From a virus: DNA of 40,263 nt. The translations under genes were made by a program, and so were the position numbers. Shown one piece after another: positions 7,428 through 38,163 of this stretch (position 1 is the first letter of the stretch; every line of letters starts with the position of its first letter). The notes under the pieces were generated by a model. That model ran no database searches, was not told where the DNA came from, and saw only the letters and a program-made list of their open reading frames with translations. The DNA lies in IMG/VR virus record IMGVR_UViG_3300034022_000226, positions 1-40,263 of that record; one strand, written 5' to 3'.

Positions 7428-7459
7428 GGAGGGTGTCTTTAAAGACACTCTCCTTTTTT
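7428..7459 (+). terminator. Intrinsic terminator after the capsid gene
   Basis: A hairpin with arms GGAGGGTGTCTT and AAGACACTCTCC (one G-T pair) is followed directly by TTTTTT at 7454-7459. It begins 18 bases after the capsid TAG. Its upper stem is one of five copies of the palindrome GTGTCTTTRAAGACAC (7433-7448). Confidence 0.85.
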
Positions 7460-7481
7460 AAATCAAATTAAATTAAATAAA

Positions 7482-8225
7482 ATGGCAAAAGCTACAGGAA
7501 GTACAGATAAATTATATAAATTAAAAGGTGGAAACCCTCTTTCTTACACATTAGCATCAAGGAATCACCCTCGTTTTCCACTAATGTGGTTTGATGAGAA
7601 GAACAACCAAAATCGTGCTTTAAGGTATTCAGTAAACCAAAAGTCTCCTTTTGAGGATGAACAAGATGGGAATGCTATTATTGAGCCGATTATATTTGAA
7701 GATGGATTTTTAAGAGTACCAAGAACAAATCCTGTTTTACAACAGTTTTTACATTACCATCCATTGAATGGCAACATATTTATGGAGGTAGATAAAGAGA
7801 AAGATGCAAGTACAGAGGTTGAGGACTTGAATATAGAAGTAGATGCTCTAGTTGAAGCTCGTCAGCTTACACTTGACCAAATTGAGACATTAACAAGAGT
7901 TTTATTTGGAAAAGACCCATCAACAGTATCAACTGCTGAGTTAAGAAGGGATATTTTGGTGTATGCTAAAACAGACCCTAAAGGATTTTTGAATGTATTA
8001 AACGATCCTGAGTTGAGATTTCAAGCTAAAGTTCGTTTATTCTTTGAAAATAAATTATTAATATTAAGAAATTCAGAGAAAGAAGTATGGTTTAATACCA
8101 TTACCAATAAAAAGAAAATGTTGTCAGTTCCGTTTGGAGAAGACCCATACGATATGGTTGCCCACTTCTTGCAAAGCGATGAAGGATTGGACTCACTGAA
8201 GATGCTTGAATCATCTTTAGCCTAG
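7482..8225 (+). CDS. Capsid-adjacent virion protein of unknown role
   Basis: 247 aa, not recognised by name. The N-terminal part (KLKGGNPLSYTLASRNHPRF) is followed by a basic/aromatic segment and an acidic linker (about residues 105-125), then a helical domain. It carries no enzyme motif, signal peptide or membrane segment. It lies between two intrinsic terminators, one after the capsid gene and one after itself, so it probably relies on read-through from the capsid transcript or on an unseen promoter. The position suggests a capsid accessory or head-completion protein; that is inference. Confidence 0.7.
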   Translation: MAKATGSTDKLYKLKGGNPLSYTLASRNHPRFPLMWFDEKNNQNRALRYSVNQKSPFEDEQDGNAIIEPIIFEDGFLRVPRTNPVLQQFLHYHPLNGNIFMEVDKEKDASTEVEDLNIEVDALVEARQLTLDQIETLTRVLFGKDPSTVSTAELRRDILVYAKTDPKGFLNVLNDPELRFQAKVRLFFENKLLILRNSEKEVWFNTITNKKKMLSVPFGEDPYDMVAHFLQSDEGLDSLKMLESSLA

Positions 8226-8260
8226 TAGATTCTTGATTTTTGATTGATTAGTGATTAAAG

Positions 8261-8292
8261 AAGGGGGCACTTATTGTGTCCTCTTTTTTTTA
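8261..8292 (+). terminator. Intrinsic terminator after the 247-aa gene
   Basis: Stem AGGGGGCAC / GTGTCCTCT with a TTATT loop and two G-T pairs, followed by a run of T from 8284. It lies about 35 bases after the TAG and directly before a promoter-like site. Confidence 0.75.
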
Positions 8293-8302
8293 TGTATATT
8301 TG
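8274..8302 (+). promoter_or_regulatory. Bacteroidota-type promoter (TTG ... TATATTTG)
   Basis: TATATTTG at 8295-8302 fits TAnnTTTG exactly and lies 14 bases before the ATG at 8317. A TTG at 8274-8276 is 18 bases upstream, slightly shorter than the usual 19-21. Because a terminator stands immediately upstream, the neck and tail genes beyond need a new start, which supports this call. Confidence 0.55.
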
Positions 8303-8316
8303 TAAAAAAAGAACTA

Positions 8317-9267
8317 ATGATAAATGGAGTAAGAAATGCTGTTTTATCAGTACTTAATAAAAATAATTACGGATATATATCTCCTTCTGATTTTAATTTG
8401 TTTGCAAATAATTCTCAAATGGAGATTTATGAAGAATATTTTAGTAGTTATAATAAAGTTATAAATGCTGAAAATACTCGTACATCAGGTGTAGAATATG
8501 CTGATATGGAACAACCCATTGCAGAGGTTTTAGAATATTTTTTAAGGACAGATTATTTATCAAAAATTTCTGCTAATAAATTCTCAATGCCAACACCAAC
8601 CACTACAGGATATAATACATATATGTTGTTGGATGTTAAATGTAAACCTGTTATTCTTAAAACAGGTACAAATACAAGTGTAGTTTCTTTACAATTAGTT
8701 GATAGTACTGCATTATTTACTACATATGGTATTGCTGCAGGAGATGTTGTAACTAATTTAACTACAGGGTTAGTATCTACAGTAGTTTCTGTAGTAAGTA
8801 ATACAGTTTTATCATTAGATTCAAATATATTTTTAGCATCAGGTAATTCCTATGTTATTATTTCTTCCGCTACTATTGTTCAAACAGAAAAAGTAAATAA
8901 TTCAAAACTTGGGTTATTGGTTAATTCCAATTTAACTGTTCCAACAATTGAGTTCCCTGTTTATGGACTACAAGGTTCAGAGTTAACTTTTTATCCTGTT
9001 ACTATAACCAATAAGGGTCAAGTAGAAGCAACTTATTTTAGGTATCCGGAAGTACCAAAATGGACTTATATCTCATTAGCTAATGGTGAACCTGTATTTG
9101 ACCAATCTCAACCTGATTATAAAGACTTTGAGTTACCTATTGAAGATGAGTATAAATTAGTAACTAAGATACTTGAGTATTGTGGTATGTCAATTAGAGA
9201 AATAGAAGTTACTCAGTTTGGGTTAGGTCAAGAACAAGCTCAAAAGCCTACATTTAGTATGCAATAA
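8317..9267 (+). CDS. Putative head-tail connector (ring/neck) protein
   Basis: 316 aa starting MINGVRNAVLSVLNKNNYGY. I chose the ATG at 8317. An in-frame GTG at 8251 would give 22 more residues, but those codons run through the terminator hairpin and the promoter, so they are not coding. The N-terminal helical part is followed by a Thr/Val/Ser-rich beta insertion (about residues 110-190) and a C-terminal segment (QSQPDYKDFELPIEDEYKLV). The arrangement before a gp4-like adaptor gene suggests a ring or connector component; the exact role is inferred. Confidence 0.6.
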   Translation: MINGVRNAVLSVLNKNNYGYISPSDFNLFANNSQMEIYEEYFSSYNKVINAENTRTSGVEYADMEQPIAEVLEYFLRTDYLSKISANKFSMPTPTTTGYNTYMLLDVKCKPVILKTGTNTSVVSLQLVDSTALFTTYGIAAGDVVTNLTTGLVSTVVSVVSNTVLSLDSNIFLASGNSYVIISSATIVQTEKVNNSKLGLLVNSNLTVPTIEFPVYGLQGSELTFYPVTITNKGQVEATYFRYPEVPKWTYISLANGEPVFDQSQPDYKDFELPIEDEYKLVTKILEYCGMSIREIEVTQFGLGQEQAQKPTFSMQ

Positions 9268-9281
9268 TAAAATTTTAAAAG

Positions 9282-10205: not shown

Positions 10206-10206
10206 A

Positions 10207-19633: not shown

Positions 19634-22600
19634 ATGCCGGATTTAAAACAAGCGTTAAGAGATTTTGTAGCTACCTCTAATAGTGGTAAATATACTGATG
19701 AAGCTACTTTATTATCTAAATTTCCTGAGTTACAAGGTTATGACATTAATTCATTAAAAGATTTTGTAGCTACTTCTAATAGCAATAAGTACGCAAATGA
19801 AGATGAGTTATTTTCTAAATTTCCTGAATTTGGGTTAGGTGGACAACAACCTGAATTAAAAAAAAAAGAAGAGCCAATACTTCCAATGGCTCCACAAAAA
19901 GAGCAAGTACCAAGCGCAATACCGGGAATGCAACCTTTTACGGGTTCTCCTTTGGCAGGTACTCCTTCGGAATTACCATCTCCAATAAGTGAGGAGCAAC
20001 CTGAAACTCCTGTAGCTCCAATTACTCCAAGTTATGTAGAACCAACTCCCGTTCAACTTGAGCAGGGACCACTTGGTGCGTTTAATCAAAAAATAACAGG
20101 TCCTGATTACGGTGGTCAATTAACTCCTGAAGAACAAGCACGTGCAGTAAAGATTCAACAACCTGAAGTTCCTGAAGAGGAAAAAGAAGGTTATTGGAAA
20201 AATTTCTTTACAAAATCATTGCCTTTAGGTATAAATCAATTAGATAAATTAGTTGCATCTGCTCCTGAAGCTGTTGTTAATGCATTATTAATTCCACAAA
20301 ATTTTGTTGCTTGGGCAACAGGTTTAGATATAGCTACAAATGCTGATAAACTTGGTAAAGATTTAGGCATATCAAATCCTATATTGAAAAAACTTAATGA
20401 AGAACAAGAGTATCTTCAAAATAAAATAGGGAAATTTAATAAAGAAAATTACGAAAAAACAGGTATATATGAAAATATAAAAGATGGTAATTATTCAGAC
20501 GCATTTGCACTATTAGGAAATGGTATAATTGAAAGTGCTCCTATTAGTGTAGCTATGATGTTTGGAGGTGCTACACTTAGTGCTGCAGAATTAACTGCTG
20601 CAGGTACATTATTATTTTCAGAAGGTAGTAGGGAACAGTTAAATGAAACTGCACCTAATATGTCTGAAATTGAAAAGACACTTAAATCTTTAGCTATGTC
20701 ATCTGCTGAGACAGTTTTCTCTCAAGTAGGTACAGGAACTATAGGTCAAGTATATAAAGATATAATTAAAAAAGAAGGATTAGAGGCAGGTCAAGTTGTA
20801 TTTAAAAACGGGTTAGTAGATATGTACAAAACCGCTTTAAAAAAGTATGGTGCTCCTATTGGTCTATTAGGAGAAGGTATAGAAGAAGTTGCTACTCAAG
20901 TAACTCAAAATGTTATTAGTGGTAAACCTGCATTTGAAGGTGCTGCCGATGCTTTTATTGTGGGAGGTGGAAGTGGTATTGTATTTGCGACTCCAATTAC
21001 TGTAATGAAAGCTAACGAGAACATTAAAAACATTGTAGAAACAAACAATTCTAAATCTGAAATAAAGACCATCTTAAAGGATAAGCCATCTGAATTACAT
21101 CAAATATTTAATGTTCCACAGGCAGAGGAATTTACTCCTGAGCAAATACAAATTGCAAATACAAATAAATCTAGGGATATATTAGTAAAAAATTTAGATA
21201 AAAATGTAAAAGATGGTGTAATATCTTCTGAAGATGCAAAACAATCTGTATATATTTTTGATAAAGCACAGCAAGTTTCTAATGCTGTAAAAGATTTAGA
21301 TGTAAGTATTGAGAAGAAAACAGAAGTAGCAAATTTGTTAAGTAAAAGAAATGAATTAAAAACAAAGATTGAGAATAAAGAAGATGTACTTGTTGTAAAA
21401 GAAAAGCAACAAATTGATCAAATAAATAAACAAATTTCAGATATTATTTTAGAACCTAAAACCGAACAAAATGCCATTCAAGAACAAGCAGCAGATGAAA
21501 GCGTGTTACGCACAGGGCAACCCGAAGTGGGATTGCAAGAAGTGGTCGAAGGAAACGTCCAACCTGAAGTCACTACCGCAGGGACCCAAGAAGTCGTTGC
21601 TGAGCAACCGAAGCAAGAAGAAGTAGCTGTTCCTGAGATTAAAAGAGAGTCTATTCGTTTACTTACAGATGAAGAGGTTAATCCTTTGTATGATGAGATA
21701 CCAATGAATCTTCTTCCAATAGCAGATAACGTATCAAAACAAGATGCGGTATTTGATGCATACTTTAAATCTAAGCAAAACAATACTAACCCTAAATTAA
21801 TTAAGGTAGTAGAATCATCTTTGATTAAAACTCCTGAAGTGTCTTTAAAGACACAAGAGGAAGTTGTTCCTGTAGAAATTACACCCGTTGTTGAAGTAGA
21901 ACAATATGTTCCTATTACTGAGAAGGAAGTGAGGCACGATGCGTTTACAAGAGATAATGCTATTGATTATGAGGAGGATTATAAAACAGGTGATAATGGA
22001 AGGGAGTATTCATATATATCAAGCCTGACTGTTGAGTTACTTGATAACGATGGTAATAGCATAGGGAACTTAATTAAACTTGTGGATGAAGATGGGAATA
22101 TGACTTTTGAAGCAGAAGATGTAGACGGTAATAAATTATCAAAAGACGAATTTGGATTTGATACTAAAGGTGAAGCTAAAAAAGCACTTGTAGATAAATG
22201 GAATAAAACTCAAAAGAAAGAGTTTGATAAAGAAGTTAAAAAGAAAGCTAAAGAAACTGAAAAAGTTGCTGCTAAAGAAGCTAAAAAGAAAGCAAAAAAA
22301 GAAGCACCTGTTGCTCCTGTTATTATACCTGTAGAACCCGTTCAAGCAACTGCAGAAGAACAAGGCATTACAGATGAGTTAATGAATTTGGATGTAAATG
22401 ATGAGGATAGTTTAAAAAGAATATTAGATGCTCTTGATAGAGTAGATGAGAATATATCTAAAAAGTTATTTGGAGGCGCTAACGAGTCATTACTAGCTAT
22501 CCCATTAGGTACTGTTCAGTTGGTTATTAAAAGTTTAAAAGTATTGGTAAAAGGTGGTATGTTACTACGTGATGCCATTAGGAAAGTAGCTACTGATAAT

Positions 22601-25600
22601 AATATATCTCAAGAGTCTATAAAAGACATTTTAAATATTGCCCCTATCCAAGAAGGGTTTAATAGCGTTATGTCAAAAGTTGACGTTATGATTGAGCGTC
22701 AAAAAAGAAGAGGCGTAGAAGAAAAAAGAATAATTAGCAATGTTGATACCTTAGTAAGAAATGAAGAGGTATATAAAAGTGCTGATGATGCACAGAAAAA
22801 AATATTAGAAAGAGAAGCAAGAGTTAAGTTGGGTGTTGCACCAAGACGTGCTCCATCAATAGGGAGAGTTCTAGGTGTACTTAAAGACATTACAAATATC
22901 TCAAGACAAGAGAAATTGCAAGTTATCAAGCAGATAAGAGAGTTGTCAAGAGATGCTGCTAAAGATTTAGCTAATGAAATTAAAGAGTTAGCTAAAACAG
23001 GGACAATTACTCCTAACCAAGCAGCCAATATTATTGCAAGGTTTGGTAAAGTAAATATGCTTAATGAAGTGTCTGTATCAAACTTTGTTGACTATATGTC
23101 AAAAGTTTTTGAAAATGCAGAGTATGTAAATAAAATTGAGCAAGTTAATAGTAAATTAAAAACTGCTAAGAAAAACATAGGTACGAAGATTGGTACAGCA
23201 GATGGTTTAATTCTTCCATTACAAAGATTATTCTCTATTAATCCAACACTTATTCCTCAAGAGTTTTTTGATAGATATTCTGAATTGGTAAATATGTTTG
23301 GAGAAAAACAAGCAGTTCTTTCTCTTGAAGAAAAATCAGCAGTAACTAAAGACGTTGAGTCTATTCTTACAGGTTTAAATGAAGAACAATCAAAAGCAAA
23401 TGAATTAGCAGATAGGTTTAATCAATTTGAAGGTAAAGTATTTGATGATGAAGGTAGATTGCAATACGCTGATACCATTAATAAAATGGTTGAGGAAAAG
23501 GTTATTGATGAAAACGAGGCAGAGATTATGCGTAAGTATAAATCTGACATCGCTCCGCAAGTAAGTAAAACAAAAATGACTGAGCAAGAAATTTCAGAAG
23601 AAAAAAAAGAATTAATACAGGCTTTAAATAAAACACAAGTTGATACAAGCGGTTTACCTACTCGATATCAACGTGATTTAGCTAATCGTTTAAAAGATTT
23701 GGTTTCTACAAAAAATGTTGAAGAATTAAGCAATACAGATTTAAAAAACTTATTAAAAGTTCTTGATAATATCAATAATAATTATCTACCTCACTATGCT
23801 CAGTTAATGGTAGAAAAATTAAATTCAATTAATGATGCGGAGACTTTAACTTCTGCATTTAAAAAAGCAGTTATTGCTCCATTATCAGGACTTTATTCAA
23901 AAATTAAATCTTCTGTATTAGGTTCAAAAAGAACGGCAGTATCTGAAATGGTAAGAAGGAATCCATTATTTTATGTAGACCAAATATTTGGGAACTTTAA
24001 AACAAAAGATATATTCAATGCTGTATTTAATAAAGTATCAGAAGCGGAAGCAAAATTTAAAGCTGATTTAAAAAGAGTACAAAATATACTAGAGAAAGCA
24101 GAGGAGCGAGTTGCAAAATCATTTAACCTTAATGGTAATGATACATTAATGTCTAAGTTTAAGATGATGACTTATATGGTTCAACTTGAATACGATTCTA
24201 ATAAGGGAAGCAAACAAGTTAATCCTGCTGCTGATTATTTAAGGGCAACTATTAAACACATTGACGAAGGGAAGTCTCAATTTGGAGAGAGAGATGCAAA
24301 TATGTTGCAAAAAATACTTAAAGAATTTGCACCTAATGGAGAGATTGATAATGATAAATTGTATAATTCATTTAATAAAGCAGAGAAATCAGCTATTAAA
24401 GATATTCGTGGTGTAAATGAATCTTTAAGAGAAAAAGCGGAAGATACTGCAGCCATTATTCGTGGTGATAGGATTAATCCTTTAACAAACTATGTGCATC
24501 TAAATGTTCTTCACGAACACCAACCTAACGATTTAACTTCAGGTGTTGCATTTGTTAATGATTATAACAATTCAATGAGAGGGTCTACAAAGGCAAAATC
24601 TTTAATAGAAAGAACAGGTAAAGTATCTCCATTAAATTTTGATGTATTTGCTTCTGCTCAACGTGGAGCAAAGTTTGTTTTAATGGATTATAATTTAACT
24701 GAACCTATTCGTACTGCTCGTAAAACCATTAAACAAACTGTCTCTAATTTTGAAAAAGAAGGTAGAATACCAAAAGAGAAAAGACAAATTATAAATGCTA
24801 TTGATTCAGCATTTGAAGAGGCTACAGAGAATGTGTTGACAAATACTTTTGTTACAAATTCATTAGCTGATGATTTTGTTGACTATGTAAATAAACAAGG
24901 CTATAGAGCTGTACTTGCCGGGACATCAAGATTTGTATCTGAGTTAAGTTCAAATATTGCATTTGCTGTTATATTAGATCCTAAAGCATTTGCTACAGGA
25001 GTAGAAAATAAAGGCTTTATTATGTCTGTTGATGCTCCACTTGTTATGGAGAATGTAAATAGCAAACAAACTAATAGGATATTTCCTACAGATACTTTAT
25101 CGGGCAAGGTAATAGATACCAATATACTTCAACAAACAAGTGGTATAAAAGGTGCTAAATCAAAAAATCCTGTTGCAAATAAAACACAACAAATATGGAA
25201 TTTATCAGGTAAAAAAGTTGCAAATACAGTCGAATTAACTGCTGATGCATTAATATCAACCCCTGATAAACTTGCAATGCGTCCAATGTGGTTTGGATCA
25301 TTTGCAAATGAATTTAAAAACATTTCAGGAGAAAAAGTAGATTTTAATAAAATTGCAGCTAATGACGAAAAATATATGGAGCAGCATAAAGAGGCTATTG
25401 AGAAAGCAAAAACAACTGCTGACGAAAAGTCTATTATGATGGGTTCTACAGACAATCCTTTTATGGGGATACTTAAAGGTACTGTAAAACCTGACCAAAA
25501 ATTCCTAACAAGGGCATTTAACAATTTCAATAACTTTATGACTAAGTTTATGATTTTTGAATATGTTTCTGCTCGTACAGGTATTATGGCAGCAATGGGA

Positions 25601-26506
25601 AATGGCTCATTAACTAAAAAACAAGGGGTTGCCGTACTTGGTGCTGTAACTACAAGGATGGTGGTTTATACATTAATGCTTCAAATGTTAGGAACAGGAC
25701 TTATGGGATTAATATTTGGAGATGGAGAAGAGCCTGAAGATGAAAAATCATTTATGCAAAAACTTGGTCAAGCATTTGCTTCTGCATTTACATCAATAGC
25801 ACTTGGTAGAGATTTCGGCAATGCTACTAAACAAATGATTAATATTGGAGTAGAACGTGTAAACGAAAACTATCTTGACTTTTTAAGAGAAGGAGATTAT
25901 GATCCGTATAAAGATGCAATTCAATATTCTATTGTTCCTCCTGATAAAGAAGGTAAACAAACAGACTTGAAAGATTTCTTATTGAATATGGGGGGAGCAT
26001 TTGGTCCTGCATTAAAAACTGCAGATTTAATTGGTCGTAAACTATTAGAGCCTGAAAAGAAAGAAGCAGATGCAATTGAAAGAAGAGAAGATGAAATTAA
26101 AGTACGTATTCCATTAGAGATATTAGGAAATTTAGGATTTATACCATTATATAAAGACATAAGAAAAGTTGTTTTAAAAAATATGTATAGCAGCCTTGAG
26201 AATGCTGAAAGAACTGCAGCAGATAAAAAGAAAGCTGAAAAAGAAAAATTGCACGGATATAAAAATAAATCTGATATGGAGCGTTATGACCCTGAGCTTT
26301 GGGATAAAGTATATGGCCCCAATTCTCCTGATTATGATAAAGACGAGGCAATAAAAGAAATTAAAAAAGCAAAACAAAAATTAGAAAGAGAAATGAAAGA
26401 CGAAATGTATGATTATACTCCTAAATCTAAAAGTGGATTTGGATCTTCAAAATTTGGGCAAGGTGCAAGTAAATCTAGTTTTGGGTCTGCAAAATTTGGG
26501 CAGTAA
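19634..26506 (+). CDS. Giant virion-associated (ejection-type) protein
   Basis: 2290 aa. The N-terminus carries two copies of a 33-residue repeat (each with DFVATSNS, KY and SKFPE). A Pro/Glu-rich low-complexity region follows (about residues 75-190), then a membrane-like Ala/Gly segment (about 280-320), a second Pro/Glu/Val linker (about 625-760) and a Lys-rich helix (KKKAKETEKVAAKEAKKKAK, near 870). The remainder is long and helical. Near the C-terminus a hydrophobic stretch (VVYTLMLQMLGTGLMGLIFG, about 2010-2030) is followed by short FGSxKFGQ repeats at the very end. It resembles large polyvalent-protein (LPD38-type) ejection proteins from memory. No lysozyme, polymerase (DxDxD) or protease motif was found. 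It closes the late operon. Confidence 0.6.
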   Translation: MPDLKQALRDFVATSNSGKYTDEATLLSKFPELQGYDINSLKDFVATSNSNKYANEDELFSKFPEFGLGGQQPELKKKEEPILPMAPQKEQVPSAIPGMQPFTGSPLAGTPSELPSPISEEQPETPVAPITPSYVEPTPVQLEQGPLGAFNQKITGPDYGGQLTPEEQARAVKIQQPEVPEEEKEGYWKNFFTKSLPLGINQLDKLVASAPEAVVNALLIPQNFVAWATGLDIATNADKLGKDLGISNPILKKLNEEQEYLQNKIGKFNKENYEKTGIYENIKDGNYSDAFALLGNGIIESAPISVAMMFGGATLSAAELTAAGTLLFSEGSREQLNETAPNMSEIEKTLKSLAMSSAETVFSQVGTGTIGQVYKDIIKKEGLEAGQVVFKNGLVDMYKTALKKYGAPIGLLGEGIEEVATQVTQNVISGKPAFEGAADAFIVGGGSGIVFATPITVMKANENIKNIVETNNSKSEIKTILKDKPSELHQIFNVPQAEEFTPEQIQIANTNKSRDILVKNLDKNVKDGVISSEDAKQSVYIFDKAQQVSNAVKDLDVSIEKKTEVANLLSKRNELKTKIENKEDVLVVKEKQQIDQINKQISDIILEPKTEQNAIQEQAADESVLRTGQPEVGLQEVVEGNVQPEVTTAGTQEVVAEQPKQEEVAVPEIKRESIRLLTDEEVNPLYDEIPMNLLPIADNVSKQDAVFDAYFKSKQNNTNPKLIKVVESSLIKTPEVSLKTQEEVVPVEITPVVEVEQYVPITEKEVRHDAFTRDNAIDYEEDYKTGDNGREYSYISSLTVELLDNDGNSIGNLIKLVDEDGNMTFEAEDVDGNKLSKDEFGFDTKGEAKKALVDKWNKTQKKEFDKEVKKKAKETEKVAAKEAKKKAKKEAPVAPVIIPVEPVQATAEEQGITDELMNLDVNDEDSLKRILDALDRVDENISKKLFGGANESLLAIPLGTVQLVIKSLKVLVKGGMLLRDAIRKVATDNNISQESIKDILNIAPIQEGFNSVMSKVDVMIERQKRRGVEEKRIISNVDTLVRNEEVYKSADDAQKKILEREARVKLGVAPRRAPSIGRVLGVLKDITNISRQEKLQVIKQIRELSRDAAKDLANEIKELAKTGTITPNQAANIIARFGKVNMLNEVSVSNFVDYMSKVFENAEYVNKIEQVNSKLKTAKKNIGTKIGTADGLILPLQRLFSINPTLIPQEFFDRYSELVNMFGEKQAVLSLEEKSAVTKDVESILTGLNEEQSKANELADRFNQFEGKVFDDEGRLQYADTINKMVEEKVIDENEAEIMRKYKSDIAPQVSKTKMTEQEISEEKKELIQALNKTQVDTSGLPTRYQRDLANRLKDLVSTKNVEELSNTDLKNLLKVLDNINNNYLPHYAQLMVEKLNSINDAETLTSAFKKAVIAPLSGLYSKIKSSVLGSKRTAVSEMVRRNPLFYVDQIFGNFKTKDIFNAVFNKVSEAEAKFKADLKRVQNILEKAEERVAKSFNLNGNDTLMSKFKMMTYMVQLEYDSNKGSKQVNPAADYLRATIKHIDEGKSQFGERDANMLQKILKEFAPNGEIDNDKLYNSFNKAEKSAIKDIRGVNESLREKAEDTAAIIRGDRINPLTNYVHLNVLHEHQPNDLTSGVAFVNDYNNSMRGSTKAKSLIERTGKVSPLNFDVFASAQRGAKFVLMDYNLTEPIRTARKTIKQTVSNFEKEGRIPKEKRQIINAIDSAFEEATENVLTNTFVTNSLADDFVDYVNKQGYRAVLAGTSRFVSELSSNIAFAVILDPKAFATGVENKGFIMSVDAPLVMENVNSKQTNRIFPTDTLSGKVIDTNILQQTSGIKGAKSKNPVANKTQQIWNLSGKKVANTVELTADALISTPDKLAMRPMWFGSFANEFKNISGEKVDFNKIAANDEKYMEQHKEAIEKAKTTADEKSIMMGSTDNPFMGILKGTVKPDQKFLTRAFNNFNNFMTKFMIFEYVSARTGIMAAMGNGSLTKKQGVAVLGAVTTRMVVYTLMLQMLGTGLMGLIFGDGEEPEDEKSFMQKLGQAFASAFTSIALGRDFGNATKQMINIGVERVNENYLDFLREGDYDPYKDAIQYSIVPPDKEGKQTDLKDFLLNMGGAFGPALKTADLIGRKLLEPEKKEADAIERREDEIKVRIPLEILGNLGFIPLYKDIRKVVLKNMYSSLENAERTAADKKKAEKEKLHGYKNKSDMERYDPELWDKVYGPNSPDYDKDEAIKEIKKAKQKLEREMKDEMYDYTPKSKSGFGSSKFGQGASKSSFGSAKFGQ
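19660..19829 (+). repeat. Tandem 99-bp coding repeat
   Basis: Two adjacent units start at 19660 and 19759, each beginning AGATTTTGTAGCTAC and ending in a TCTAAATTTCCTGA segment. They encode the twin N-terminal repeats of the 2290-aa protein; DNA identity is highest at the unit starts and ends. Confidence 0.8.
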
Positions 26507-26511
26507 ATAAT

Positions 26512-26697
26512 TCAAAAATCATCGTCTTCGATTGACTTTAGGATTAGTCGGAGGTCTATAATAAGGTTGCGTATGTCTTTGTCGACAGGGAGAAATTCCC
26601 TGTCAACTAAGTTTTCATAAATGTTTGCTAGTAGCAGGTGCTGTTCATTTATCCTAAATGAGATACGCTCTGCTCTTGAGTTTTCGCTATTGTCCAT
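26512..26697 (-). CDS. Small hypothetical protein
   Basis: 61 aa, unrecognised. Charged and helical, with an acidic C-terminus (SIEDDDF). It starts inside the end of the DnaA-like gene (11-base overlap) and is the last gene of the early operon. Its stop faces the stop of the 2290-aa gene across five bases. A strong hairpin at 26584-26604 lies inside it. Confidence 0.6.
   Translation of the reverse strand: MDNSENSRAERISFRINEQHLLLANIYENLVDREFLPVDKDIRNLIIDLRLILKSIEDDDF
26584..26604. terminator. Hairpin near the convergent operon ends, possible late-operon terminator
   Basis: Perfect 8-bp stem GACAGGGA / TCCCTGTC with a 5-base loop, 78 bases past the late-operon stop and inside the opposing 61-aa gene. 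On the plus strand only a short TTTT (26612-26615) follows, so termination may be weak or factor-assisted. Confidence 0.4.
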
Positions 26698-27199
26698 AGT
26701 CGGATATATCGTTAAACATTAAGTTTACCTTTTTTAGTATAAACTTTTCTTTTCCATTAGGTGTTTTTTTATCTATTATACTAAGTATGTCTTCAATCCT
26801 TTTGTACTTTGTCTCCATTCGTGTTACATTCTCTCTCTCCAAAATTAGCTTTTCTATTTGGTTATTTAAACTAATAATAGACAATTTATTATCTTTTTCC
26901 TCTTTATTTATATATAACACCTCTTTGTCTATTAAAAACAAGTCCCTACACGTAATATACTTAGCCATTAGTCCATTCACCTGAGTAAGTAAATGGTATA
27001 CGTTACGCATATAATTTATAACGGTAGAGTGGTCTTTCTTTAAAAACCTACCAATTGAGGCGTATGTGTAACCTCTTTCTCTAAGAATTTTAGAGAATAC
27101 CATTCTTGCATCTACAATCTCACGTCTTTTTATTTTATCTTTTACATCTTCATTAAATACGGATTTTATAATCTCTGATAATTGTTGCATTTCTTTCAT
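26687..27199 (-). CDS. DnaA domain IV-like DNA-binding protein
   Basis: 170 aa. Residues about 24-65 (RREIVDARMVFSKILRERGY, then TYASIGRFLKKDHSTVINYM) match the helix-turn-helix domain that DnaA uses to bind DnaA boxes; DHSTVINY is the characteristic recognition motif. The AAA+ domain of DnaA is absent. A coiled-coil-like Lys/Glu region follows (about residues 95-150). It could bind origin or promoter sites in the phage or recruit host DnaA-type recognition. A second, different protein with the same domain is encoded at 35496-35798. The leader AAATCAAATCAA precedes its ATG. Confidence 0.8.
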   Translation of the reverse strand: MKEMQQLSEIIKSVFNEDVKDKIKRREIVDARMVFSKILRERGYTYASIGRFLKKDHSTVINYMRNVYHLLTQVNGLMAKYITCRDLFLIDKEVLYINKEEKDNKLSIISLNNQIEKLILERENVTRMETKYKRIEDILSIIDKKTPNGKEKFILKKVNLMFNDISDYGQ

Positions 27200-27840: not shown

Positions 27841-28055
27841 AATTTTTCTATTTCTTGTTTTACTTCATCCCAAAATCTCCATTCTTTATCTAATGGATAA
27901 TGATTCCAATTAATACAACTTCTTATTTCATCTATTGCTATTAATGCACAAGAAATAGCCATTGTTTCCATTTCTAATTGAGTTAATTCTGGATTTATAA
28001 CGCATTCAAACATATGCGTATATAATTGTTCTGCTTTTTCTTTTGGGTTACTCAT
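27837..28055 (-). CDS. Small phage protein, paralog of the 63-aa gene at 39536-39727
   Basis: 72 aa. The core MAISCALIAIDEI followed by FWDEVKQEIEKL is a pattern common in small proteins of Bacteroidota phages; the function is not known to me. The 63-aa protein near the right edge shares the layout (KxxAExL..., AISIAI...VDGI..., then WIDVIEYLEAKI). It overlaps the HNH gene by 8 bases and the next gene by ATGA. Confidence 0.65.
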   Translation of the reverse strand: MSNPKEKAEQLYTHMFECVINPELTQLEMETMAISCALIAIDEIRSCINWNHYPLDKEWRFWDEVKQEIEKL

Positions 28056-28581
28056 AAAAATTATTTTTAAAATGTGAAATTAAAATAGCATCTAAGTTGT
28101 TTGTATATATATTATTTAGCTTTTGACTTACTTGACCTAATGAAACTCCTTTATACTTTGCAAAATTGCCCATAGATTCAAATACTTTTTTTGTTTTTAA
28201 GCATAATACTTTTTTATTCAATCTTTCTCGTATTGCTTGTTTTTCATTTTTTGTTTTTTTATGAGGTATATAATTATCTGAACTTACAAAATGGTTTGTA
28301 TTTTCTTTTGCTGTTACCCATTCTAAATTAGATGAGTTGTTGTTGTGTTTATATAAATCTTTATGGTTAACATAGTTTTTGCCTTCTTGCTTTTCACAAA
28401 ACGATTCTGCAACTAATCTATGTACATAATATCTTTTTCTTTTATTTTTTTTATACAAAAGAACAACCATATACCTATCTGTAATAACATTAACAAGATG
28501 TTTATTTTTTTTTATATTAAGTATCTTGCCTGTATCCGATACCATATAATTTTCGTAACCTTCTATTTTCTTATAATTCAT
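28048..28581 (-). CDS. HNH homing endonuclease with NUMOD4 and NUMOD1-like domains
   Basis: 177 aa. The N-terminal NUMOD4 motif (KKIEGYENYMVSDTGKI, residues 4-20) is followed by the HNH nuclease (VHRLVAESF, then VNHKDLYKHNNNSSNLEWVT, about residues 54-93). A C-terminal DNA-reading helix like NUMOD1 (KKVFESMGNFAKYKGVSLGQ, about residues 132-151) completes the layout. Such free-standing enzymes cut DNA at specific sites and spread by recombination. The region is visibly poorer in G+C than the helicase next to it, a sign of separate origin. Its start overlaps the helicase stop by 11 bases. Confidence 0.85.
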   Translation of the reverse strand: MNYKKIEGYENYMVSDTGKILNIKKNKHLVNVITDRYMVVLLYKKNKRKRYYVHRLVAESFCEKQEGKNYVNHKDLYKHNNNSSNLEWVTAKENTNHFVSSDNYIPHKKTKNEKQAIRERLNKKVLCLKTKKVFESMGNFAKYKGVSLGQVSQKLNNIYTNNLDAILISHFKNNFYE

Positions 28582-29815
28582 TATTGTTATTTAAAAATGT
28601 TTTATCAAAATGTTTTAATGTATAGTCCTTCTTTTTAGTAACTGCCTTGTATATGTCTTTCTCTATGCCACCCTTTGAGAATATCCAATACACTTGATTC
28701 TCAAGCCTGTCTTTAGTAGTCATACGATCCTTGCTCTGCCAATAGCTAGTGGCACTGAAGTCAATATTGTAATATACTAAATACTTAGCGTGTCGTAAAG
28801 ATATTCCTTCTCTGCCGGAGACAATCTGCAATGCAATATTCTTGTCGGTGTCTTCAAAGACACTTAGCTCTGACGTTAACTCATCACCAAATACTTGCTT
28901 CAGCGCATTGAACTCTTCCTTGAACTTATAAAAGATTCCAATCTTGCATCCTTCAAATCTTTTCTTTATGAACTCAGCCTTGCTTAAATCAATTATCATA
29001 GACTCTCCACTCTCAAATTTAACTGTACCTGAGCATAGTTGATGTACCTTCATCATTAGTTTCACGGGTGTGTCTGCTAGTATTACCTCACCCTTTCCTT
29101 CAATCAATAAGTCCCTCTTTAGTTTCTTAATCAAGTTGTATGTCATCTCACTCATCTCTACCTCAAGTACCTCCTCAATGGTCTCAGCCTTGAATCCTGC
29201 CTCTGCCTGAGTGTAATTGATAGTGTACGGCTCCATAGCTTTAATAATTGATTCTAGTCCTTCGCTATAGTCCCTGATGAACAACCCGTTTATCTTCTTG
29301 TCTTTTACTTTCACGTACCTATCTGAGAACCTATAAAAGTTTGTAAACTCTCTGAATGGATTATTTGGTATGCCATAAACTTGATGGTACATCTGCGAGT
29401 ACGACTCAGGTGTGGGCGTTCCGGATAGGAGAATAACATTGGCTTTAGTCTTGGCAATCAAGTCCTTAACTTGAATAGCTCGTTTGCTTGGCTTGGGCAG
29501 AGCCGAACAGGAATGTGCTTCATCAATTACTATTAAATCCCATTTTAAGTCAGGCAGTTTATGTATGCTTTCGTAATTGATAACAGTAATGTCATAAGAG
29601 GGATTAAAAAGTTTGTAGTCGGCAGTAATTGAAGTTACTGCTTTCTTTTTAGTCAAGAACAAAACATTTTTACTTCCAATAGTTTCTGCTATGCCAAGAC
29701 TTGTAAGCGTTTTGCCACAACGAACTTCCATTGCCAAATAAACAAAGCCATACTCTTGGACTATCTTGCTTCCTTGCTTGATAATATCTACTTGGTAGTC
29801 TCTAAGTTCTAACAT
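28571..29815 (-). CDS. SF2 (SNF2/DEAD-type) DNA helicase
   Basis: 414 aa. Motifs in order: Q-motif RDYQ (Q8), Walker A MEVRCGKT (29-36), Ia LFLTKKK, motif II VIDEAH (96-101), motif III LLSGTP (129-134), a second RecA-like domain with IGIFYKF (about 295), motif V/VI IVSGREGISLRHA and SYWQSKDRMTTKD (about 333-375). These make a compact two-domain translocase typical of phage replication or recombination loci, comparable to other small phage SNF2-like helicases. The gene is bracketed by two HNH endonuclease genes that overlap both its ends. One copy of the 16-bp palindrome (28848-28863) lies within it. Confidence 0.9.
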   Translation of the reverse strand: MLELRDYQVDIIKQGSKIVQEYGFVYLAMEVRCGKTLTSLGIAETIGSKNVLFLTKKKAVTSITADYKLFNPSYDITVINYESIHKLPDLKWDLIVIDEAHSCSALPKPSKRAIQVKDLIAKTKANVILLSGTPTPESYSQMYHQVYGIPNNPFREFTNFYRFSDRYVKVKDKKINGLFIRDYSEGLESIIKAMEPYTINYTQAEAGFKAETIEEVLEVEMSEMTYNLIKKLKRDLLIEGKGEVILADTPVKLMMKVHQLCSGTVKFESGESMIIDLSKAEFIKKRFEGCKIGIFYKFKEEFNALKQVFGDELTSELSVFEDTDKNIALQIVSGREGISLRHAKYLVYYNIDFSATSYWQSKDRMTTKDRLENQVYWIFSKGGIEKDIYKAVTKKKDYTLKHFDKTFLNNNNEL

Positions 29816-30332
29816 AATATTTATTATTTAAAACATTTAAAATAGTACTTCTGTCTACATTATATTTTAACATAAAAATTTTTACATTACCAGGAAATAA
29901 AATAACATTTTTAATATTTCCTTTTATACAATTTTTTCTAATGTCAATTACTTCTAATTCTGACAACTTTCTAATTGGGTTTATCTTGTCTAAAGTATTG
30001 TAAGAATGACTTTCATTTTCAGAATAAGTACACCATTCTAAATTATTTAACCAATTATTTTCTTTATCTCCATCAATGTGATTTACACAGGGTTTATTTA
30101 ATGGGTTCTCAATAAAATACATTGCAACTAATCTGTGTACTTGAAATCTTTTTGTTTTCCCACTAATAGATAATGTAACTCTTTTATATCCTCTTGATGT
30201 TTCTTGTTTTAAAAATTTTCCTGACCTAACAGACCAAACTTCTCCATCAATATAAATTCTATAATTTCTTTCATATCCATTTATATGTTTATATCTAATA
30301 TAATCATATTCAATAATTTTTTGTGTTTCCAT
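29802..30332 (-). CDS. HNH homing endonuclease (NUMOD4-type)
   Basis: 176 aa. A NUMOD4-like start (HINGYERNYRIYIDGEVWSV, about residues 16-35) precedes the HNH core (VHRLVAMYF, then CVNHIDGDKENNWLNNLEWC, about residues 67-101) and a C-terminal helix (KYNVDRSTILNVLNNKYY) for DNA recognition. The coding region is extremely AT-rich compared with the helicase and primase. Its stop overlaps the helicase start by 14 bases. It is divergent from the other HNH gene, so a separate arrival is likelier than local duplication. Confidence 0.85.
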   Translation of the reverse strand: METQKIIEYDYIRYKHINGYERNYRIYIDGEVWSVRSGKFLKQETSRGYKRVTLSISGKTKRFQVHRLVAMYFIENPLNKPCVNHIDGDKENNWLNNLEWCTYSENESHSYNTLDKINPIRKLSELEVIDIRKNCIKGNIKNVILFPGNVKIFMLKYNVDRSTILNVLNNKYYVRT

Positions 30333-33752: not shown

Positions 33753-33861
33753 TAGTCAGGACAGGATTCGAACCTGTATTTATACCACCACACAACTTTC
33801 TTTATAGGCGAGCCCGCAGAACTCTCGTTGTATGTGCTTTTTCCAATTCAGCCACCTGACT
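33753..33861 (-). tRNA. Class II tRNA-like gene with abnormal, enlarged anticodon arm
   Basis: Acceptor AGTCAGG pairs fully with CCTGACT. A class II D arm (GCT ... AGC, loop with GG) and a perfect T arm (ACAGG, loop TTCGAAT, CCTGT) are clear. The next stem, CATACAAC / GTTGTGTG (8 bp), encloses about 30 bases with an inner CGAG/CTCG hairpin instead of a 7-base anticodon loop, so no anticodon can be assigned. CCA is not encoded. It could be a degenerate tRNA, a tRNA with an insertion, or a tRNA mimic. Confidence 0.5.
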
Positions 33862-33875: not shown

Positions 33876-33969
33876 AAGATTAACTATTCAGGAGCTTCAC
33901 CTACCTTTAATTATACTTGATGCCTCCAAATTAATGGTCAGAATCGAGCTTTTTACTTTAGTTAATCTT
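33876..33969. repeat. 11-bp inverted repeat between the two tRNA-like genes
   Basis: AAGATTAACTA (33876-33886) is exactly repeated in inverse as TAGTTAATCTT (33959-33969). The 94-base span equals a class II tRNA in length, but neither strand shows a TTCRA T loop, so it is not called a tRNA. Confidence 0.6.
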
Positions 33970-33972
33970 CTG

Positions 33973-34068
33973 TAGTCAGAGCCGGACTCGAACCGGATAC
34001 CGTTCTAGACGGATTAGACAACCATTTTACAGGACTCGGTAACCATACCTCATTACGCCCACCTGACT
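33973..34068 (-). tRNA. Class II tRNA-like gene, anticodon unclear (possibly Tyr GUA)
   Basis: Acceptor AGTCAGG pairs with TCTGACT (one G-T). The T arm CCGG, loop TTCGAGT, CCGG and a variable-arm hairpin CCGT/ACGG are good, and the 95-base length suits class II. A CTGTAAA string would be a standard tyrosine anticodon loop, but its flanks do not pair into a normal stem; the D arm is weak too. It shares the first ten bases (AGTCAGGTGG) with the neighbouring tRNA-like gene. Confidence 0.5.
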
Positions 34069-34072: not shown

Positions 34073-34088
34073 GTGTCTTTGAAGACAC
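34073..34088. repeat. Palindrome copy GTGTCTTTGAAGACAC
   Basis: One of five copies in the window (others at 7433, 21839, 28848 and 38148). It lies six bases past the exonuclease stop and just before the tRNA-like cluster, so it may form a 3'-end hairpin. Confidence 0.85.
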
Positions 34089-34094: not shown

Positions 34095-34865
34095 TTACAG
34101 TAAGTACTCATCAATACAGTAATTAGCAATGTCATCAGTAGGGTTCTCACCATAGTATTTATTAAATACCTCAATGGCTTTCCAAACTTTAACCTCGCCT
34201 CCCTTTACAAAGTCATCTGTTGGTCTAAAGATACCAAGTACTCCCGTAACTTTGTCAATTACATAAAACACCAATGGCTTACCAAATAACTGCTGATAGA
34301 TATAGCATTGGCTATCATAGTTATATGCCTTTGCTGAGTACTTGAACTTATGTATGTCGCTTGTGGTCTTTAGGTCAATAACTGAGTCATCCGTTACTAT
34401 GTCAGCCTTTCCCTTCCATTTCATACCAAATATCTCTGCTATTGCCGGAACCTCGTACTTGTTGCCTTGTCTATAGATTTGCTCAAAGAATAGGATATTG
34501 CCGTTCATCACCTTTACAAGCCTCTCAATCTCATCCATCTCCTTTCGTAACATACAGAACTGTAGGTTATTAGTTTCGCAGAATGCTTTGTACTCCTTTG
34601 TTGTCCTAGTACTCACATCAACAAATGGTGTGTCCTTAGCCTTCTCCGGCTCTAAGATCAATTGATGGAAGTACCTTCCGTCCATAAATGCTTTGTTGTC
34701 TTCACGTGGCTTACCAAAGTCTTGAGGATTGCTTAACAGCGTTCCTATATCTGAATTAGATAAGTAGTTCTTACCAATGCCACTATAGTATTCTTTGTCA
34801 TTCAATAGAATCTCAAGCACATTCGGCTCATTCGTTACATCTAAAATCTCTAGAAGTGTTGCCAT
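34095..34865 (-). CDS. RecE/Cas4-like PD-(D/E)xK exonuclease
   Basis: 256 aa. The nuclease core is visible: FMDGRYFHQLILEP (61-73, with H67), KWKGKADIV (D155), SVIDLKTTSD (D164, K166) and the YDSQCYIYQ helix (Q186, Y190). This is the DUF3799/RecE-type arrangement. Such enzymes chew one strand of a linear DNA end to expose single strands for the annealing protein, whose gene lies two bases upstream in the same operon. The single-strand binder is encoded just beyond the tRNA-like genes. The pair points to phage-encoded recombination, also useful for concatemer formation. Confidence 0.85.
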   Translation of the reverse strand: MATLLEILDVTNEPNVLEILLNDKEYYSGIGKNYLSNSDIGTLLSNPQDFGKPREDNKAFMDGRYFHQLILEPEKAKDTPFVDVSTRTTKEYKAFCETNNLQFCMLRKEMDEIERLVKVMNGNILFFEQIYRQGNKYEVPAIAEIFGMKWKGKADIVTDDSVIDLKTTSDIHKFKYSAKAYNYDSQCYIYQQLFGKPLVFYVIDKVTGVLGIFRPTDDFVKGGEVKVWKAIEVFNKYYGENPTDDIANYCIDEYLL

Positions 34866-34867
34866 TA

Positions 34868-35473: not shown

Positions 35474-35495
35474 TTGATTTGATTTTGATTATTGA

Positions 35496-35798
35496 TTAAA
35501 TAAATACTGCTCTTTCAATATCTTTTACTACCGTAACATAGTCCCTGTCCTCTGCTATCTTTTTGTCTACTGATGCTACGCCATAAATTACGCTCGAATG
35601 CTCAATGTCATACCCGCACTCTTTCATATACTGTTGTATATAAGTGATTTGCATAGGTCTCTTAAAGCACAAGTAATAGATCAAGTGTCTCGCATCTACT
35701 ACATTTCTTTTCTTTGATTTTGTGAATAGGTCTTGTTTATTGACACTGAATAACTCACAAACTCTGTCTACATACTGATTAAACACGTCCTGCTTCAT
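35496..35798 (-). CDS. Second DnaA domain IV-like protein
   Basis: 100 aa. Residues about 31-75 (RNVVDARHLIYYLCFKRPMQ ... DIEHSSVIYGV) match the DnaA C-terminal DNA-binding domain; HSSVIYG is the recognition helix signature. Unlike the copy at 26687-27199, the protein is nearly the bare domain. A short N-terminal helix (VDRVCELFSVNKQDLF) resembles the linker before domain IV. It may mark the phage origin or control the recombination operon, which begins 23 bases downstream. Confidence 0.8.
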   Translation of the reverse strand: MKQDVFNQYVDRVCELFSVNKQDLFTKSKKRNVVDARHLIYYLCFKRPMQITYIQQYMKECGYDIEHSSVIYGVASVDKKIAEDRDYVTVVKDIERAVFI

Positions 35799-35801
35799 AA
35801 T

Positions 35802-36095: not shown

Positions 36096-36116
36096 TTGAT
36101 TTGATTTTGATTGGTA

Positions 36117-36124
36117 CAAAGATA
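36117..36124 (-). promoter_or_regulatory. Possible -7 box TATCTTTG
   Basis: On the minus strand TATCTTTG fits TAnnTTTG and lies 21 bases before the ATG at 36095. No clear -33 TTTG is seen. It could start transcription of the DnaA-like, annealing and exonuclease genes. Confidence 0.35.
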
Positions 36125-36126
36125 GT

Positions 36127-36351: not shown

Positions 36352-36352
36352 T

Positions 36353-36625: not shown

Positions 36626-36644
36626 TTTTTTAAGTTTTTAATAG

Positions 36645-37037: not shown

Positions 37038-37042
37038 TTTGA

Positions 37043-37270
37043 TTAGATTTTTTTATAGTTATTAATGTTTAGGTTATAGTCTTCGCAGTATTCTTGTACT
37101 ATTTCAATTTTGTCGGTCACCCCATAACCCATACCGTCTGACCACTCGTTTTGGTCGTCTGCAAATTTATATGCATCATCCTCATTGTCAAATGCACGAA
37201 CACGTCCTGAATTGTAGCCATCGCAGTCCGTCCCTGTTTGTATTACCCAATAGGTAGCTAATTTGTCCAT
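37043..37270 (-). CDS. Small hypothetical protein
   Basis: 75 aa, very acidic and aromatic, with WVIQTGTDCDGYNSGRVRAF followed by DNEDDAYKFADD. The GTDCDGYNSG start resembles small antirestriction-like or DNA-mimic early phage proteins only in charge; no function is claimed. Confidence 0.55.
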   Translation of the reverse strand: MDKLATYWVIQTGTDCDGYNSGRVRAFDNEDDAYKFADDQNEWSDGMGYGVTDKIEIVQEYCEDYNLNINNYKKI

Positions 37271-37275
37271 TTTAA

Positions 37276-37428
37276 TTAATTTATAATGTTAGAAAATGCT
37301 ATGATACAAAATTGCACATAGGTGAACTTCTGTTCTGCTTGTGGGATTTTCTCGTAGTCATCCCGAAGATTCTCCTCAAACTCTCCTACGAACTCGTAGA
37401 ATAGTTGCAATAACTCATCGTTACTCAT
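37276..37428 (-). CDS. Small acidic hypothetical protein (50 aa)
   Basis: Starts MSNDELLQLFYEFVGEFEEN and ends in a hydrophobic stretch (FCIIAFSNIIN). Its ATG overlaps the stop of the upstream gene as ATGA, and it ends five bases before the next ATG, so it fits the operon exactly. Confidence 0.5.
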   Translation of the reverse strand: MSNDELLQLFYEFVGEFEENLRDDYEKIPQAEQKFTYVQFCIIAFSNIIN

Positions 37429-37712
37429 ACTAATTTTAATTTATGTTTTCTAGCTTCAATGTCAATTGCTTCAAAAATCTGCTCCGTCATATCACACATT
37501 ACCACGTCTAGGATGCCGTAGGCTTCGCCCCTATCACATTGGTATTTCTCCCTTATGTCCTCAATATGCCACATATTGCTAGTGTAATAACCCTTTGCTT
37601 TCAAAGTGTCCATAATTTTCTGTGTACTGTTTTTTAGACTTGCTAACTCATCTCTAAGGTAGTCAATCTCAAGCTGTGCCGTAGCACGCTCACTCATTTG
37701 GTAGTGGTTCAT
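37425..37712 (-). CDS. Conserved small phage protein
   Basis: 95 aa. An N-terminal coiled coil (ERATAQLEIDYLRDELASLK) is followed by MWHIEDIREKYQCDRGEAYG, then EQIFEAID. The second half recalls a widespread small phage family of unknown role. Coupled by ATGA to the genes on both sides. Confidence 0.6.
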   Translation of the reverse strand: MNHYQMSERATAQLEIDYLRDELASLKNSTQKIMDTLKAKGYYTSNMWHIEDIREKYQCDRGEAYGILDVVMCDMTEQIFEAIDIEARKHKLKLV

Positions 37713-37840
37713 TTTGATTTTATTTTATTAGGTTTGAAATAAAAGTATACGCAAATTGCTGAGTATACCAACGCTGCTAGTGGAATGCAGACTAAAAAAA
37801 AGTAAACTGTCTCCCACACAAAAAATAGTTTCTTTCTCAT
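37709..37840 (-). CDS. Tiny membrane protein (43 aa)
   Basis: One transmembrane segment (about residues 12-35, TVYFFLVCIPLAALVYSAIC and on), a basic N-terminus (MRKK) and a basic tail (KPNKIKSK). Its stop overlaps the next start as ATGA. A single-span basic protein could be a holin-like or superinfection-exclusion protein, but an early-operon location argues for caution. Confidence 0.55.
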   Translation of the reverse strand: MRKKLFFVWETVYFFLVCIPLAALVYSAICVYFYFKPNKIKSK

Positions 37841-37844
37841 AATT

Positions 37845-38069
37845 TTAAAATTCAATAAGTTCAATGTATTGATGCATTACAACTGTTGCCCTCTTATACT
37901 TTTGCTGTAGGCTTAAAATATAATCCTCGTTGTCATACATAATCTCATTCTCTCTCTCGTACTCAACCATTGGCTGAATAACGATTTTGATTTTCTCTGC
38001 ATCTAAGGACGTAAGGACATAGAAGTCCTCCTCGTCCCAAGCACTTGTCGAAATTCTAAATACGTTCAT
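37845..38069 (-). CDS. Small hypothetical protein
   Basis: 74 aa, unrecognised by name; FRISTSAWDEEDFYVLTSLD followed by a helical acidic part. Similar short proteins occur among early genes of related phages as far as I recall. Preceded by a 108-base gap. Confidence 0.6.
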   Translation of the reverse strand: MNVFRISTSAWDEEDFYVLTSLDAEKIKIVIQPMVEYERENEIMYDNEDYILSLQQKYKRATVVMHQYIELIEF

Positions 38070-38147
38070 TTTGTTGTGGTTTAAATGGTTATCCGTTTCA
38101 TCCTTTAGGAATCGTCAGTCAGGATACACACCCTGATACGGAAGGAA

Positions 38148-38163
38148 GTGTCTTTGAAGACAC
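38148..38163. repeat. Palindrome copy GTGTCTTTGAAGACAC
   Basis: Lies 14 bases past the stop of the amidotransferase fusion gene, in a 108-base gap with no gene. A further short stem (TCAGG/CCTGA, 38119-38136) lies beside it. It may end or process the transcript. Confidence 0.85.

Follow-up and report, generated by a model that had tools for sequence, protein, structure and literature searches.

In the Cluster A mycobacteriophages, as far as the accounts of the L5/TipsytheTRex repressor describe them, many near-identical stoperator sites are spread over the genome, often in short gaps behind genes and oriented with transcription, a site lies upstream of the regulator gene, and site and repressor diverge together (PMC6550527, PMC9283540). 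The KorB protein of plasmid RK2 is portrayed, in the literature on its operators, as a single protein that acts at operators scattered over one replicon (PMC11790492), and type III hammerhead ribozymes of prophages are reported to flank single genes in several copies (Perreault et al. 2011; PMC3088659). Here we describe a 16-bp palindrome, GTGTCTTYRAAGACAC, that recurs in the IMG/VR virus record IMGVR_UViG_3300034022_000226 and its relatives. All 40,263 bases of this record were analysed and are called the window below; comparison with relatives indicates that it is a fragment. We consider it likely, from sequence comparison, that the palindrome is the operator of a genome-wide transcription regulator, EG1, encoded by the first gene of the early operon in related phages. 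A search of the PMC library for the exact 16-mers gave 0 papers, and among the papers listed in a literature search, preprints not covered, none dealt with this group of phages or with systems like stoperators in phages of Bacteroidota.

A first-pass annotation of the window had reported five exact copies of the palindrome, and our search recovered GTGTCTTTRAAGACAC at all five positions, with a self-complementary TTTAAA core in copies 1 and 2. The excess over chance that it claimed also holds: at up to three mismatches there are 16 strand-matches in the window, against a mean of 0.84 and a maximum of 4 in 100 dinucleotide shuffles, and the reversed pattern gives 0 matches to the window record. 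The three non-coding copies do stand shortly after stop codons. The copies, and two decayed versions, are as follows.

7433..7448, no strand assigned: palindrome copy 1, with a TA centre, 22 nucleotides (nt) after the capsid gene stop at 7410; upper stem of a terminator-like hairpin behind the capsid gene, with homologous post-capsid copies in relatives
21839..21854, no strand assigned: palindrome copy 2, in frame 0 (VSLKT) of a 2290-residue open reading frame, within a low-complexity stretch; relatives have counterparts
28848..28863, minus strand: palindrome copy 3, within the helicase gene, frame 1 (SVFEDT)
34073..34088, minus strand: palindrome copy 4, 6 nt past the exonuclease stop (34095), ahead of tRNA-like sequences; the context in record G062 is similar
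38148..38163, minus strand: palindrome copy 5, 14 nt past the stop (38178) of the GATase-GGCT (amidotransferase) fusion gene, with a hammerhead ribozyme directly behind
356..371, no strand assigned: decayed palindrome in terL, GTGTTTTCAAAGAAAC, at the CLQRH position, which in most relatives holds an exact copy
39297..39313, no strand assigned: decayed 17-nt palindrome, ATGTCTTTTATAGACAT, upstream of the GATase-GGCT gene

In a context like that of ATGTCTTTTATAGACAT, G062 carries GTGTCTTCATAGACAC. Neither decayed version appears in the first-pass annotation, nor does the ribozyme behind copy 5. Since the terL and pre-GATase copies of the window are decayed, part of its site network may have eroded.

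A scan of viral contigs found the palindrome in at least 120 stretches. Most long site-bearing records hold 6-18 copies, up to 18 in a record, and the two central bases are a pyrimidine and a purine (YR) in 511 of 515 sites. Across all site-count scans the reversed pattern gave 0 matches, apart from a single one in G088, one of 32 records chosen by helicase homology. Up to 60,000 bases of several records were scanned, 40,000 of 41,198 in G005, and 50,000 each of Flavobacterium phage elemoE and Maribacter phage Panino. Absence from related phages had been named in advance as part of what would refute the observation; the palindrome is present there, and at homologous places. These are the gap behind the capsid gene, the terminase gene terL (frame 2, CLQRH), the helicase gene (frame 1, SVFEDT), a small gene (frame 0, VSSKTP), the phage GroEL gene (frame 1, CV[LF]EDT) and the low-complexity stretch of the giant protein (frame 0, VS[SL]KT), together with many places in the early operon; across the lineage, sites in coding sequence occupy three reading frames. 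Among early intergenic copies 133 of 187 lie at most 25 nt from a stop, and 74 of 261 early copies are inside genes. On the sense strand of early operons the centre reads CA 189 times and TG 39 times (the sites are not independent), where the background CA/TG ratio is 1.15 over all dinucleotides and 533:248 in TT..AA contexts, sites included. The helicase copies read TG at the centre.

Selection appears to act on the DNA word and not on the protein, because the terL codons are fixed and because relatives without EG1 have the palindrome broken or different residues in its place. We gathered terL and helicase genes (80 each) by protein homology and not by palindrome; 61 of the terL genes and 39 of the helicase genes hold the exact word. 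Where terL encodes CLQRH, 61 of 62 genes spell it TGT CTT CAA AGA CAC, and among 1227 16-nt windows of the helicase gene the site comes first in conservation, whichever of the three redundancy levels is used. Relatives without EG1 have CTQRS, CIKRS or CYRRS at this place in terL, and in the small gene VSSKTP is kept (G068, G078) or becomes VSSETP (G088), with the palindrome broken. The first-pass annotation had argued that protein constraint does not explain the coding copies, and the three frames, the fixed terL codons and the change of residues when EG1 is absent led us likewise to reject it as the cause.

The EG1 protein has about 190-230 residues and a predicted helix-turn-helix. Its AlphaFold2 model (pLDDT, the predicted local distance difference test, 85.6) shows helix-turn-helix-like helices at residues 76-84 and 88-98, and its C-terminal domain is of beta-beta-beta-alpha type. 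Its homologues were collected at 60 loci and, with further scans, at 175, some of them the same contigs met in different scans; after 93 near-copies were dropped, 82 distinct proteins remained. In a de novo scan the leading cluster was a GTxTCxT-type palindrome, in 2-12 copies, for 80 of the 82 distinct EG1 genes, the exceptions being L154 and L197, and in seven EG1-less records, including 50 kb each of elemoE and Panino, the scan returned only unrelated clusters of 2-4 copies. The first sets of long records had mostly been picked for having the palindrome; the set of 32 was picked by helicase homology instead, with a bait gene that itself carries a site. Here the 21 records with EG1 hold 1-13 sites (median 10), and the 11 without it hold none (8 of 11), 1, 2 and 9. 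On the helicase tree EG1 status changes 7 times, at least 6 of them forced (G080 scored as lacking). Searches elsewhere found an EG1 relative in MW202828, the only match in INPHARED; EG1 was not found in elemoE or Panino, both without sites, PLSDB gave no match, and of 45 pattern matches in a scan of 84,980 species genomes none was confirmed.

The sites also have a regular place around EG1. Of 75 distinct loci, 65 have a site at most 350 bp upstream of the gene, usually between -205 and -316; in a count of 55 loci (5 of the 60 excluded for short upstream sequence or partial genes), 50 have a site at -205 to -300 and 41 one just behind EG1. Upstream of EG1 we counted 41 TAnnTTTG boxes in 57 loci, 34 of them within 110 bases of the start; we take this to be the Bacteroidota promoter box. 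Many loci (for example L175, L193 and L194) also have a C-rich low-complexity tract (CCTG/CCGC) on the EG1 sense strand, in the roughly 65 bases directly before the EG1-proximal palindrome, possibly an origin or a structured region.

The word differs from phage to phage, and such dialects can be read as half-sites. The consensus half-site is GTGTCAT in L400, GTGTCCT in L447 and L208, and GTCTCTT in L204; MW202828 has 14 exact copies of GTGTCGTTAACGACAC (half-site GTGTCGT), all at 43.7-55.2 kb in its early region; and G062 and its relatives have a looser palindrome centre. In G059, the record of L204, GTCTCTT..AAGAGAC stands at the terL, helicase and post-capsid sites alike, and the encoded residues become SLQRD and SLFEET. 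The presumed recognition helix of its EG1 reads GWNKS, compared with GWQKS in most EG1 proteins. Of the options listed in the first-pass annotation, a protein operator is thus strongly supported by the dialects, the co-occurrence with EG1 and the DNA-level conservation in three frames.

The observations to be explained are the distribution of the sites, their DNA-level conservation, their co-occurrence with EG1, the dialects and the coupling to ribozymes described below. EG1 very probably binds the palindrome, presumably as a dimer in which each subunit would read one GTGTCTT half-site across the flexible YR centre. In most long records a site usually lies about 205-300 bp above EG1, often with another right behind it, several stand behind early genes, and late and replication genes hold single sites. 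EG1 might then provide feedback on the early operon together with silencing or a block to elongation genome-wide, in the fashion of stoperators. We favour this role because the sites crowd behind early genes, recur singly in late modules, seem biased with transcription and are stoperator-like; that binding results in transcriptional silencing or a roadblock is nonetheless an evenly balanced proposition. Since the upstream site is well above the putative promoter, classic promoter occlusion at EG1 does not seem to be the picture. In RNA, an early intergenic copy often makes a hairpin shortly before a hammerhead ribozyme, and the copy behind the capsid gene is often a terminator stem, so that at those places one sequence could serve as both DNA operator and hairpin at an mRNA 3' end.

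A number of observations weigh against EG1 as a genome-wide regulator acting through these sites. The window record ends ahead of the EG1 gene, so that EG1 is not in the window, and EG1 belongs to no convincing family in Pfam, PHROGs or NCBIfam, its profile giving 0 hits to PDB sequences. At EG1 itself the putative TAnnTTTG promoter is closer to the gene than the upstream site, and the two do not overlap. Co-occurrence has irregular cases: G003 holds 12 sites although its EG1 frame has a stop, G021 is without EG1 and has one exact site, in the helicase gene, and G080 has 9 sites with no EG1 found, although comparison of gene order with G060 suggests that its record stops at the place expected for EG1. 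G087, with a divergent EG1-like gene, has one site by a loose pattern; it also has its own five-copy palindrome resembling GTTCACCnnnTGAAC (1097, 4017, 56236, 56792 and 57368; L502, L504), all copies being within about 5 kb of the divergent gene if the record ends are joined, and this is perhaps a far dialect, a suggestive case only. MW202828 has no sites in late genes, and the GroEL, helicase and small-gene copies are absent from several EG1 phages. Conservation places the terL site 11th among 2232 windows, or 93rd once the alignment is strictly thinned to 14 rows, and the codon identity of the helicase six-codon block, which is longer than the 16-mer, does not stand out (rank 121 of 387). 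Only one half of the small-gene site has switched in G059, whose GroEL gene is without a site, and the tie between GWNKS and the GTCTCTT dialect is only a hint because proteins with other helix changes, GVKNS (L150), GWKNS (L165) and GWGKS (L170), retain GTGTCTT. The CA bias could partly come from an RNA role of ribozyme-linked copies, whose centres are almost only CA or TA (CA 54, TA 11, TG 1), and site counts are not independent since sites are inherited together. Finally, the likeness of EG1 to ParB/KorB is weak: the full model has as its top Foldseek match in the PDB the P1 ParB-DNA complex 1zx4_A at an E of only 0.036; the DNA-binding domain alone gives no Foldseek hit at E of at most 0.001 and does not reproduce the likeness to ParB/KorB, its best VIA Z being 4.5, to 2h09 and 4gcl.

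That P1 ParB match, and a VIA Z of 5.5 to the KorB-operator complex 1r71_B, bear on the main rival, in which EG1 is a ParB/parS-like organiser that condenses, segregates or marks phage DNA and does not control transcription. A multi-copy 16-bp palindrome with some sites in genes would suit such a protein. Unrelated folds score equally in the structure comparison, however, and 46 EG1 proteins found no ParB-family match in Pfam and NCBIfam at E of at most 0.1. A ParA-type ATPase (AAA_31, PF13614) is present in 0 of 25 EG1-bearing records, a motif scan of 17 records giving 2 chance-like hits, and the sites crowd most at the ends of early genes and seem biased with the direction of transcription. 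We regard an organiser as unlikely; helix-turn-helix is a fair label for EG1 and ParB/KorB kinship a lead. A tyrosine integrase (PF00589) was likewise found in 0 of the 25 EG1 records, as against the temperate Cluster A stoperator phages, and since ParA and integrase are both missing there and no EG1 was confirmed in the 84,980 species genomes, we see no sign of lysogeny or partition in the lineage. The binder could also be a different protein, of phage or host, encoded by a gene that accompanies EG1, and in the small set compared other gene families, too, are common to the site-bearing records and missing in both elemoE and Panino. But a winged-helix-like protein near groEL is also found in elemoE, which has no sites, EG1 is usually flanked by sites, and a host protein fails to explain per-phage dialects; another binder therefore strikes us as quite improbable.

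The remaining alternatives concern RNA and mobility, and the first of them draws on the ribozyme behind copy 5.

38090..38144, minus strand: type III hammerhead ribozyme, 3 nt downstream (in the sense direction) of copy 5; Rfam RF00008, 30.4 bits, E 0.002

This score and that of the best relative (47.6 bits) are below the RF00008 gathering score of 48.5, and self-cleavage is predicted only. The core and three stems are supported by 8 sequences, with 99.1% of cells paired and 27 changed on both sides (0 of 500 shuffles). A search model built from such ribozymes, R1, which gives the window ribozyme 73.8 bits with the window in its training set, returned 121 hammerheads from 63 sources, its training contigs recurring among them; the 120 outside the window are all on the EG1 strand, and MW202828 has none among those listed. 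Examples after early genes are L103 592-646, L009 13339-13393 and L124 9363-9417 (minus strand), with others in L101 (2153/2462/4087) and L040 (4027). In 458 kb of other relatives (EG1-less, or with the divergent EG1 of G087) there was one match, in elemoE (L148 28916-28964, minus strand, 33.4 bits), a hammerhead-like sequence in a Flavobacterium phage without EG1. The palindrome stands just upstream of 90 of the 120 hammerheads, or 78 of 103 distinct ones (the loci are otherwise unthinned), most commonly 13 nt before the model start; random placement, for which the site pattern was somewhat stricter than for the observed count, gave a mean of 5.6 and a maximum of 12. Of the 30 hammerheads without a palindrome, many have another GC-rich hairpin there, as judged by eye. 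At least one extra outward pair is formed by 31 of 66 ribozyme-linked copies, compared with 26 of 126 others, and because of this further pairing and the nearly exclusive CA/TA centres it seems that an RNA hairpin is wanted before the ribozymes, the operator often supplying it.

Such findings agree with a palindrome that is mainly an RNA 3'-end stem-loop, which terminates transcription or protects hammerhead-made ends. The shared terminator or processing signal considered in the first-pass annotation survives to this extent: 79 of 194 early copies are directly before a hammerhead and many post-capsid copies are terminator stems, including copy 1 of the window, which is indeed the upper part of a hairpin stem with a T run behind it. 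As an account of all copies it fails, since no hammerhead was detected for the other 115 of 194 early copies, the coding copies have no such role, and different words in different genomes would not be needed. Nor is pairing clearly kept: asymmetric variants of early sites give, in sense RNA, C.A 15 times and U.G 18 times (symmetric 269). As RNA pairing is not clearly preferred over the early sites as a whole, this speaks for DNA as the primary level of function, as does the nearly constant YR centre; an RNA-only role is disfavoured by the pairing counts and by the coding copies, is in our estimate very unlikely, and is retained as a second role. A general terminator was rejected, since the features of an intrinsic terminator (a GC-rich stem, then a T run) are present at copy 1 only and the other four copies have no T run. 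The many near-identical words might suggest a mobile or selfish hairpin spreading in the genome, like repetitive extragenic palindromes (REP) or miniature inverted-repeat transposable elements (MITE), an option the annotation had also raised. This we hardly credit: the sites occupy the same homologous positions across diverged phages, the dialects change in place, flanks differ between copies, and at the compared coding sites there is no insertion, the palindrome replacing codons in alignable proteins (CLQRH against CTQRS, CIKRS or CYRRS in EG1-less relatives).

The genes around the copies place the window in a phage lineage.

147..2396, plus strand: terminase large subunit (terL) gene; phrog_6681, E 1e-177; site in 61 of 80 homologues
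5992..7410, plus strand: capsid/virion structural gene, preceding copy 1; phrog_13704
19634..26506, plus strand: giant 2290-residue open reading frame, holding copy 2
28571..29815, minus strand: SNF2/ResIII-like helicase gene, holding copy 3
34095..34865, minus strand: exonuclease gene, preceding copy 4; phrog_412, PF12684
38178..39275, minus strand: GATase-GGCT fusion gene, preceding copy 5; PF06094, PF13230

Capsid, portal, terL, primase and recombination genes assign the window to a podovirus-like lineage of about 60 kb with MW202828.1 as a relative; more distant kin are the Flavobacterium elemo phages, Cellulophaga phages and Panino, and because of these relationships the host is probably a member of the Bacteroidota. 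The nearest GATase relatives of the window (L538, L539, L540) come from EG1-carrying contigs. The early operon recurrently has the GATase-GGCT fusion and a second, presumably amidoligase-like gene (window 38178-39275, minus strand; L131 14335-15252; L140 11443-12384). HNH/NUMOD4 endonuclease genes (28048-28581 and 29802-30332, both minus strand) flank the helicase gene, and 26687-27199 and 35496-35798, again both minus strand, each encode a small protein that contains the C-terminal helix-turn-helix domain of DnaA (PF08299). Just behind copy 4, at 33753-33861 (minus strand), Rfam matches 109 nt to tRNA at 44 bits, with a large insertion; ARAGORN, which found no tRNA in the window, missed it; a second tRNA-like sequence was seen by eye at about 33965-34065 (minus strand), its AGTCAGG/CTGACTA ends similar to those of the first, and G062 has a similar sequence at that place.

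If EG1 does read these sites, it would stand for a so far undescribed family of DNA-binding phage proteins whose operator code can be read directly, with dozens of natural protein-operator pairs in several dialects available from sequence alone. Genome-wide silencing sites would then reach beyond temperate actinobacteriophages, to Bacteroidota phages without signs of lysogeny, coding sequences would have been bent to retain a DNA word, and operator hairpins would be coupled to hammerhead ribozymes in tandem early genes. The full picture, in which a lineage without signs of lysogeny runs a stoperator-like network whose palindrome lies in three coding frames, is rewritten when specificity changes, decays when the regulator is lost and is reused as a hairpin before hammerheads, is one we hold tentatively, at slightly less than an even chance.

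Set beside the known systems, the EG1 sites resemble Cluster A stoperators in being dispersed, mostly in short intergenic gaps, with one upstream of the regulator gene and with site and protein co-diverging. They differ in that the site is a 16-bp palindrome, mostly asymmetric only at its central YR, and not an asymmetric 13-mer, in that sites are also found inside late genes and many copies abut hammerhead ribozymes, and in that EG1 matches no known family. With KorB, whose plasmid RK2 has 12 palindromic OB sites, the likeness is that of one protein on dispersed operators, and in the full model the helix-turn-helix region shows a weak likeness (1r71_B); unlike KorB, EG1 has no partner ParA in the 25 records. 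The EG1 model may also be like P1 ParB, whose layout we take to be a helix-turn-helix followed by a small beta-alpha domain, as the non-significant top match to 1zx4_A reflects. Unlike ParB and KorB, EG1 shows no ParB-type N-terminal CTPase domain in the Pfam and NCBIfam searches, and only about 70 residues precede the helix-turn-helix in its model. The ribozymes share with RF00008 hammerheads the three-stem core with CUGANGA and GAAA, and several copies flank single genes; unlike the prophage hammerheads, most of those found here lie a few nucleotides behind a probable operator palindrome that forms the preceding hairpin.

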